A DNA stretch of 64,000 nucleotides from Aporrectodea caliginosa (taxonomy: Eukaryota > Annelida > Clitellata > Crassiclitellata > Lumbricidae), in contig JACEVL010000967.1 of NCBI GenBank assembly GCA_020284085.1, positions 272,387-336,386 of the forward strand. The letters run 5' to 3'. The notes below the pieces were generated by a model. The model saw only the letters and a program-made list of their open reading frames with translations, ran no database searches and had not been told where the DNA came from. This document shows, one piece after another, positions 804 to 34,878 of the stretch; position 1 is the first letter of the stretch, and each line of letters opens with the position of its first letter. A program made the translations under genes and the position numbers.

Positions 804-992
804 CTTGGAAATATGTACAGAGGTCCCGGCTTGACCGACTCCCCAAAAAAACTTATCGCGTCTATAAGCCTTATCATAGTCCTGCAAAGGTTTCAGCGAA
901 AACTGTCGGTTCCCTCTTCTGAGATAGCACTTCCCAACTATCCAGTGGAAATTATCCGTCCTATATGTGTACTTGTATTTGTGTGCACAGAC
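804..992 (-). CDS. Integrin alpha exon 4: blade 2 to start of blade 3
   Basis: The acceptor is GTGCTGCAG and the exon is 63 codons in phase 0 at both ends. It encodes [11 protein letters not shown], then GKCYL, matching the CAHRY and GRCY motifs. It closes with [16 protein letters not shown], the usual approach to the blade 3 strand. The donor GTAACT starts at 803. The next expected residues (hydrophobic strand plus GAPG or GGPG and an aromatic/Trp turn) are not found in 1-803 on this strand but are found at 34833 on the plus strand. Confidence 0.92.
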
Positions 993-3900
993 CTGCAGCA
1001 CAAACAGAATGAAACTGAAAATCGTCTTCAAGTCATCCGTGAAGTCCGAAACAAGCTGTGAAGTTTAGCCAACAGTCAATCGAATTGTAATGGTAATTAT
1101 ACACATTTATATACATGTAGCGTCACTTTAGAAGAGATTTATCAGAGCTAGGCGCCCCCGACCTAACACAATAAACCATAAGTGAACAAATGGTCTTCAT
1201 GGTTGTCGATGTAGTCATCATCATAGTTATCATGACCACATTTTTTTTATTATTATTATATATGTTATCACTATAGTCGTTATCAACGTTCATACCATCA
1301 TTATCATCATCATCGTCCTCGTCGTCGTCGTCGTCATCGTCATCATCATCGTCAAGATCGTTATTGATTATCAATATTGCACATAGTCGTCATAGTTTTC
1401 CATCATTTCAGCACTGGCATGTAACTCAACAATATTGGCACCGTCATCATCAATCGTCACAGCATCATTGATGATAGTGATGATAAATCACCACCAACAT
1501 TATCATAATCATCATCATTCATTGCCAACATCATTCGTATCGCAGGAAAGCTGATTGTAAGGTACTCAGAAGCAGTGAAATATTTGATTCTTGTTTGAGT
1601 ACTAGAGGAAAGAGCGACACCACAGCTGTTGTTTTCTGCATTTATCATTGTTCGGTTTGAAATTATTATTTTAATTTTATGCGGCTTTAGACATCAACTA
1701 GAACGTGACGTTTCGAAAAATTAGTAGGCAAAGCTTCTGTTTCACCAACTACTGTAACAGTTGTATCAGGATACATGTTGGCTATATATCAGGGTTCTGT
1801 GCATTGTAGGCCTACTCTTTTATTCAGGGCTTTTTAAAGGAATTTTTAGAACTGCACAACCTCTTCTCTCTTTTTCAAAAACCCATGGTAAATGTTTCCC
1901 AATTGGATGACGATGACTTTTTTTAAACAATTTTTCACTGCACAAAAATGCTTTTACAGTTGCACAAATTTATTTACACATTGAACTGCACATTTTGTGT
2001 AGAACTGCACGCTAAAAAAGCCCTGCTTTTGTTTTCATTATCCAACAAACGACTAGGAACATTGCTAGATAATCATTCGCTGGTATATCATTTCTAGGCT
2101 GATGCATGATACTCAAATCTACATTTAATTAATTTTGACAGTCTGTCATGTTACTCATATGTATGTGCAGCTGTTGTCTGCTGTCTTTGATGAGTGGGGG
2201 TAGTAAAAATTCACGAAATAGTGTCACCGATGTAGATAATAATAAATTTGGCAGAAGGTTTGTAAAATTTATTTTTGAAAAGTAAGGCTACTTTGGAAAA
2301 GTATTTTTGAAAAGTATTTTGAATACTTTTTTAAATAATTTTGAAAATATTTTTAAAAATACTTAAAAACAGTATTTTCTATTTTGAAAATAGAAATCTA
2401 TTTTCAAAATACTATTGTGCCATTAGTGATAACCGCACAATCCCCTCCAGACGACAGGCTGATGCGCAAAACATTTGTTGTTATGATGTCATACATGCCT
2501 ACGTTTTCAACTGTGTATCAGATGTCTGTACACCAAAGTGCGATTAGTAATTGGTTAATAAAGAATATACTTACTAACCTCACTTACTTACGCTGTATTG
2601 TATTGCATTGCACTAGACTTGCGATTGATGCCTCGGCTAGATTCGCCTGCCTTTTATAAGTATCTCAAATCACACTTTTTTAACCGTGGCTGGGCTGGGA
2701 GCGCCTCTGAGTAGGTTTCTTGAAGAGGCGCTATATAAATTCTCGGATTGAATGAATGAATGAATGAATGAATGAATTGTGATGCACTGTGCGTTGTTAT
2801 AAAGGCGCTACAGACGTTTCCAGATGAGATTTTCAGATTAGATTAAACCTCTGGTTTATGGGTTGTGTAGGTCAGTAACTTCCTGAATTCTGACGGTCAG
2901 TCGTATGGCTCTTAATTCCTCATCGCTAACTCAGCCATTGGTAGTGCCAGTCCCAAGCATGGATAAATGTGGAGGGCAATGCTAGTCATATTTGTTATGA
3001 CAAAGCGTCGTTAATATAATATTAACCAATTAACCAATCCTCATCGCAATATTAGTTCATGCATGCAAATTTAATTCAATTTCCAAATTATTAAACTGTC
3101 TTCCTGATCGAACCAAAGATACTGATTCGAGTTAGATCCTAATTTTGCGCACTAGTCTGGTGGTTAGCTTGGATTTTCAACCGAGAGACCGAAGGCTAAA
3201 ATTTCCACCAGTACAGAAAGAAGTTTCGAAGTTTCTGCTCCACTTGCGTCCAGTTATGAATGAGTACATTAACCGTTAACTCTCGGCTGGAAGATCAGAC
3301 GGCGAGGAATAGGACTGACCACACCATCCCCATGGCATACACCGATGCCAAGAAAATTAAGTCGCGAACATTCCATATTCATAGCAGCATCTCTTGATTA
3401 GCTCAAGGGACTGCACACAAACACAAACACACACACACACACACACACACACAAAGACACACACACACAGACACACACGCACACACACGCACATTAAAAA
3501 TCAGATCAATATTATGGATTTTACACAGATTACAGACTTTTATGATCTCTAATCATCTTGGTTAGGCTACATGGAATGATAGTATGCTCACCACAAACTC
3601 TCCAGTACTGCTGGATACGTCCATGGCACCTCCAAGCCATTGGTTGTATTTATATGCTGTGTAACCCGGCTGTTTCCCGGATTCTAAAGCGCAAATAACA
3701 TGCAAATTTTGATTTATTATTATTCATCTACATATCTGTTTCTAACATCGCAAACCAGCATGACTGTCATAAGACTTCCACATCCATATAATTATGAGAT
3801 ACAGATATTTACTTTCTCTAGTGAATGAGTTGCATCCCCTAAATGCAACAATGGGATATGGGAGACTTCACCAACGGCTTCAACTTAGATTAGTGCAAAA

Positions 3901-34720: not shown

Positions 34721-34832
34721 ATTCATCACATTACGTAGACAGTAATAGAAATACTGATGCAGTCCAACCAATGAAAAGCAGACTTTATTTCTTGTGTACT
34801 TATGCTGTTTCTGGTCTGTTTTCTGTGTCCAG

Positions 34833-34878
34833 GAGGGTCATGTTGTGATGGGTGGCCCAGGCACATGGCAATGGCAAG
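34833..34878 (+). CDS. Integrin alpha exon: blade 3 GGPG turn
   Basis: A 46-base exon between CTGTGTCCAG and GTGAGA encodes EGHVVMGGPGTWQWQ plus one base. It matches the YIVFGAPGTYNWKG strand of blade 3. Phase 0 at its start equals the phase at the end of the minus-strand exon 4. A second AG three bases further in would drop one residue. Confidence 0.88.

Follow-up and report, generated by a model that had tools for sequence, protein, structure and literature searches.

Exons of a probable single integrin alpha gene on opposite strands of an Aporrectodea caliginosa contig

The stretch of DNA analysed here, called the window throughout, comprises 64,000 nucleotides of Aporrectodea caliginosa contig JACEVL010000967.1. 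It carries integrin alpha exons on both strands: exons 1-4 lie on the minus strand, and the exons for the remainder of the chain lie on the plus strand from position 34833 onward. We infer that these probably belong to a single integrin alpha gene, in which the segment with exons 1-4 has been inverted with respect to exon 5 and all later exons, because the two sets tile the chain exactly, the first set ends and the second starts in phase 0, and no second 5' set was detected by a search whose reach was measured with a control.

Exons of the two halves

A draft joined protein of 840 aa was compared with a large protein set, which gave 153 relatives at E <= 0.001. From the best 120 of these, the 113 relatives of 880-1240 aa were used for a 999-column integrin alpha profile, and this was compared with the window in six frames, in pieces of at least 12 aa. 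Exons were taken from stop-to-stop frames and extended by splice sites. The minus-strand exons are as follows.

10368..10594, minus strand: exon 1, with ATG, a signal-peptide-like stretch and the mature chain start FNLDPYS; ends in phase 2; columns 11-54, E 3.3e-4
4897..5030, minus strand: exon 2, blade 1 (VGAPKANNS...GTVYKCRL); ends in phase 1; columns 54-95, E 1.4e-11
3592..3683, minus strand: exon 3; ends in phase 0; columns 104-131, E 0.017
804..992, minus strand: exon 4, blade 2 to the start of blade 3 (VCAHKYKY); columns 131-194, E 1e-9

AG/GT sites are present in all four, with exon 1 opening at its own ATG. The lengths of 227+134+92+189 = 642 nt give the phases 2, 1, 0 and 0, so that exon 4 ends in phase 0, at the donor AAG/gtaact (the slash marks the exon border). 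With an E limit of 1, Pfam finds nothing in the 214-aa minus half. The plus-strand exons carry the chain from blade 3 to the transmembrane helix.

34833..34878, plus strand: exon 5, the first plus-strand exon (EGHVVMGGPGTWQWQ); columns 189-211, E 4.6e-4; slice search E 1.5e-6
36304..36378, plus strand: exon 6 (GGLLVNFGSNLT...DSYF); phase 1 to 1, splice sites; no profile match of its own listed
36741..36848, plus strand: exon 7, blade 4 (GYSVTS...GGAPRYNESGAV); columns 232-266, E 0.8, and slice search E 0.038, both weak; donor end uncertain
42126..42266, plus strand: blade 5 FG-GAP exon with a Ca-site-like loop (DTNADGWAELFVGAPFE); columns 285-336, E 2e-11; Pfam FG-GAP 1.8e-9
42602..42755, plus strand: exon with the start of blade 6 (RFGTAIASIGDLNSDGFN); columns 337-367, E 8.1e-7
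43468..43594, plus strand: blade 6 exon (DVIIGSPFEDTGRGAIYIFNG); columns 366-408, E 2.3e-14; splice sites
45117..45181, plus strand: exon with the start of blade 7 (SSIKSFGYSLSTGRDIDGNRYP); columns 408-429, E 1.5e-4
46752..46961, plus strand: exon from blade 7 to the thigh (DVSIGAYQSESVAIIRARPV); columns 430-487, E 9.3e-8; splice sites
49928..50088, plus strand: thigh exon; phases and splice sites; profile match weak (slice search E 3.4)
51077..51247, plus strand: thigh exon; phases and splice sites; without a profile match of its own
55821..56338, plus strand: calf exon of 518 nt, Ig-like domain 2; columns 596-755, E 9.4e-23; Pfam Integrin_A_Ig_2 5.3e-17
56788..56983, plus strand: calf-2 exon; columns 756-817, E 8.4e-5; splice sites
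58201..58326, plus strand: probable calf-2 exon with unsettled ends; slice search E 0.0089
59588..59701, plus strand: putative calf-2 exon; open frame and splice sites
63151..63267, plus strand: transmembrane exon (PIWLIVVGVGVGILHFVGLILILKK); columns 936-978, E 0.0035; splice sites

For exon 6, both thigh exons and the exon at 59588 we relied on phase and splice sites, judged by eye, and the calf-2 exons around 57.5-58.3 kb are provisional. Profile slice searches did not reveal the small exon expected for about columns 266-285 in the interval 36848-42126, nor a tail exon before the right window edge. We discounted two further profile matches, at 56581-56733 (E 0.0054) and 56525-56638 (E 0.088), which we take to be translated simple repeats.

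The gene found in this way has the parts of an integrin alpha chain. The FG-GAP beta-propeller is seen in the Pfam match at 42126-42266, in profile matches of both halves and in the PDB matches given below; the Pfam FG-GAP matches at 42602 and 43470 fall below the cut-off, and Pfam has no match for 46754-46960. Ig-like thigh and calf domains follow, clearest in the Integrin_A_Ig_2 and calf-2 exons and weak in the thigh. Integrin alpha chains end in a transmembrane helix and a short tail with a GFFKR-type motif; the helix is encoded at 63151-63267, and the motif is present in the profile consensus. An inserted A domain is absent from the parts of the gene found.

The join between the halves

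The minus-strand exons cover profile columns 11-194 and the plus-strand exons columns 189-978. The only common columns, 189-194, are those where the exon 5 profile match extends back into intron sequence; apart from these the two sets do not overlap, in agreement with an earlier note on this DNA. That note had also observed that exon 4 ends and the exon at 34833 starts in phase 0, and the lengths, splice sites and frames agree with it. The consensus donor of exon 4 meets a consensus acceptor at exon 5, whose borders are tgtccag/GAGGGT...CAAG/gtgaga. All exons placed are open in the required phase, and no stop, frameshift or lost splice site was found in them. Among the introns that could be measured in the two halves, none exceeds 5.3 kb. 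One relative, P0241, is colinear across the join in a gapped alignment, over 98% of the query at 29% identity. Among the integrin relatives listed by two protein searches (120 of 153, plus 2 more), which are about 20-38% identical, no close orthologue spans the join.

Search for a second 5' set

If the plus-strand exons were a separate gene, its exon 4 would sit more than 24.2 kb upstream of exon 5, a far longer intron than the maximum of 5.3 kb measured here. Throughout 10595-34832, the best profile match on either strand reaches only E 5.7, and the protein of exons 1-4 itself finds no second copy there, with chance-level matches only (E 2.1 or worse). In tblastn at E<0.01, 0 of the 113 relatives match either 10595-34832 or 1-803. 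The same tblastn recovers known exons, with 74 matches in the bin of exon 2 and 136 in the 42-kb bin. Over the whole window, it gives just 3 matches in the bin of exon 4 and none for exons 1 and 3; thus its negative result leans on exon 2 and on the profile.

A control was made with 34 mutually dissimilar relatives (<60% identity), whose exon 1-4-type segments were set in random flanks and searched with a profile rebuilt without sequences at least 50% identical, with E<0.01 taken as recognition. Exon 1 was recognised in 32 of 34 relatives, exon 2 in 34 of 34, exon 3 in 13 of 34 and exon 4 in 33 of 34, and at least one exon in 34 of 34; these figures apply to relatives chosen by similarity to the present gene, to segments cut at its exon borders, and to introns that do not shorten the segments. 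The claim that no second copy of blades 1-2 lies in the 24 kb upstream of 34833 is upheld by the profile and by tblastn. The companion claim, that no later exon lies left of 804, is nearly uninformative, because only 803 bp remain there and introns of this gene reach 5.3 kb.

Integrin class

The best PDB match is alpha-4 for both halves, with 57.8 bits (E 1.2e-14) for the minus half and 88.1 bits (E 5.6e-24) for the plus half; alpha-6 reaches 33.4 and 29.1 bits, respectively. In the set used for the trees, the highest identity of the minus half, 35%, is to an alpha-8 row, and a mite PS1-like protein scores near alpha-4 on both halves.

Maximum-likelihood trees were made with the same 34 relatives, one for each half. 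The branches of our gene are long (1.85 for the minus half and 2.34 for the plus half), and neither half has a supported sister group. By path, the minus half is nearest to PS3/PS4-type rows, on their side of a fork with support 90/88, and the plus half is nearest to alpha-4 and PS1-type rows (fork 24/43); both placements are unsupported. The earlier note had called the gene laminin-type (PS1/alpha3/6/7). This label finds no support: neither half falls in the PS1-type group, whose fork has 90/84 in the minus-half tree (A), where it is drawn open, and 100/99 in the plus-half tree (B). The alpha-4/alpha-9 grouping offers the best PDB match for both halves, and the trees leave both unplaced. The gene may thus be called alpha-4-like by best match only, and its class is not firmly fixed.

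Across the 120 listed relatives, the score of one half does not predict that of the other (Spearman -0.07, p 0.46), and each half has different top scorers. This, the different tree neighbours and the minus half without a Pfam match speak against one gene. At such distances, we attach little weight to the trees and the score correlation. In favour of one gene count the shared best PDB match to alpha-4, the long branches of both halves and the colinear alignment of P0241.

Discussion

The gene as drawn could not yield one pre-mRNA. Our preferred reading, a single gene with an inverted 5' part, would need two breakpoints. The first would fall in intron 4, left of 804 and probably outside the window. 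The second would fall between 10594 and 34833, with the upstream side of exon 1 on one side and the rest of intron 4 on the other. The earlier note had proposed the same kind of inversion; its reading remains the best one in view of tiling, phase and control, and its breakpoints could not be located, as none was found in the window. There are 0 N gaps. A blastn self-comparison (E 1e-5, low-complexity filter on) gave no repeat linking 1-804 to the rest of the window, and GC in 2-kb steps ranges from 0.32 to 0.49, lowest at 34-36 kb, with no step readable as a breakpoint. Simple-repeat arrays are dense at 24-35 kb, and one of them lies next to exon 5.

34248..34731, no strand: array of about 480 bp with 4-base and longer periods; stops 101 bp before exon 5

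We infer that this array may plausibly be the right breakpoint or a misjoin site.

Genes split by misassembled or real inversions have intact exons, a clean tiling and an intron as the breakpoint. The present locus resembles them in its intact exons, its clean tiling and a break that would be intronic, and differs in that the breakpoints are not seen. No decay is visible in the exons and splice sites placed. This fits an assembly inversion and a second haplotype as well as a recent inversion, and makes either an inversion made in assembly or one of two haplotypes seem somewhat likelier as the cause than an old fixed inversion. A special form of the preferred reading, with its probability counted within it, is that a real inversion, whether fixed or polymorphic, recently destroyed the gene, so that the inverted allele gives no product. 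It would have the same anatomy, and the many simple-repeat arrays between the halves could favour breakage; however, the exons placed show neither stops nor frameshifts nor damaged splice sites, so such an event would have to be recent, and we hold this form to be possible, if doubtful.

It is also conceivable that two separate integrin alpha genes stand head to head, the one on the minus strand running past the left edge and the one on the plus strand having its exons 1-4 far away, lost or too diverged. Tandem integrin alpha duplicates are known, for example alpha5-8 of Ciona, which are A-domain chains (PMC1145181), and the nearest tree rows and top-scoring relatives of our halves differ, albeit without support. 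Only the plus-strand gene need lack anything, as the window ends 803 bp past exon 4. For the same reason, the argument of the earlier note that two paralogues, each missing the other half, would be a large coincidence is weaker than stated: it stands for the plus half, but the minus half may continue past the window edge. Against two genes, the second 5' set went undetected in 24.2 kb despite the control, and a boundary shared by chance would, by our estimate, be expected about 1 in 20 times for the exon and 1 in 3 times for the phase. We thus regard two genes as improbable; the small share of belief that they keep is owed to the cut of the minus-strand gene at the window edge.

A receptor could even have stayed intact after a real inversion, if the transcript of minus-strand exons 1-4 were trans-spliced at intron 4 to plus-strand exons 5 onward. 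The exons and splice sites placed are indeed intact, but an assembly inversion or a young haplotype predicts the same intactness. For mod(mdg4) of Drosophila and its relatives, it is documented that exons of opposite strands can be joined, the common exons receiving one of many alternative 3' exons (PMC4667647; PMC12692577), and trans-splicing has been proposed as a rescue of broken genes in insects (PMC4667647); the cases cited are insect ones. The present locus is like mod(mdg4) in having the exons of one protein on opposite strands; it differs in that joined mRNAs were demonstrated there, whereas here they would be a prediction. Trans-splicing of the two halves appears possible but unlikely, and we would give it only the slightest of chances.

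Compared with alpha-4/alpha-9-type chains and arthropod PS3-type chains, the present gene has the same FG-GAP head, Ig-like calf domain and transmembrane helix, but its coding parts lie on opposite strands, and the listed relatives are only about 20-38% identical. If the arrangement is an assembly error, the scaffold contains a wrong inversion, and automatic annotation would split the gene into two truncated integrins. A haplotype or a fixed inversion would mean that this lineage has had a cell-adhesion receptor gene cut, and that there may be a replacement or rescue. Trans-splicing of the halves would make this an opposite-strand case beyond the insects cited.

Neighbouring gene and other elements

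One further gene lies between the two integrin halves, on the strand of exons 1-4.

20486..21898 including the stop, minus strand: NeuroD-type bHLH gene, a single exon of 470 aa from the first plausible ATG

Its frame is open, and the longer frame matches Pfam HLH (1.6e-18) and Neuro_bHLH (6.1e-10). Relatives reach 79% identity over 91% of a 518-aa query, which includes 48 residues upstream of the ATG. Among the best 120 of 1006 relatives, molluscs make up most of the top named ones, and annelids, nemerteans and vertebrates come lower. The source of the 73-79% identical relatives gave no near integrin within the lengths admitted by the protein searches. PMC9926792 names human CERKL, ITGA4 and NEUROD1 together as part of a 1-Mb locus on chromosome 2; thus, an alpha-4-type integrin beside NeuroD may be an old neighbourhood.

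Two open frames lie on the plus strand within the integrin gene. The first, 160 aa at 48020-48499 in the intron 46961-49928, looks protein-like by eye, has no Pfam or PDB match, and is directly followed at 48534-49039 by tandem repeats whose unit measures about 21 bp, judged by self-match spacing. The second, 255 aa at 60841-61605, looks mobile-element-like by eye and has no Pfam match. At the left edge, 1-404 is a repeat-like element with GACGTCA-rich ends, apparently truncated by the edge, which we presume from its appearance to be akin to a short DNA transposon. Finally, 12020-12276 and 13002-13252 are direct copies of a repeat of about 257 bp; they are 91% identical, look mobile-element-like and have short inverted pieces close by.
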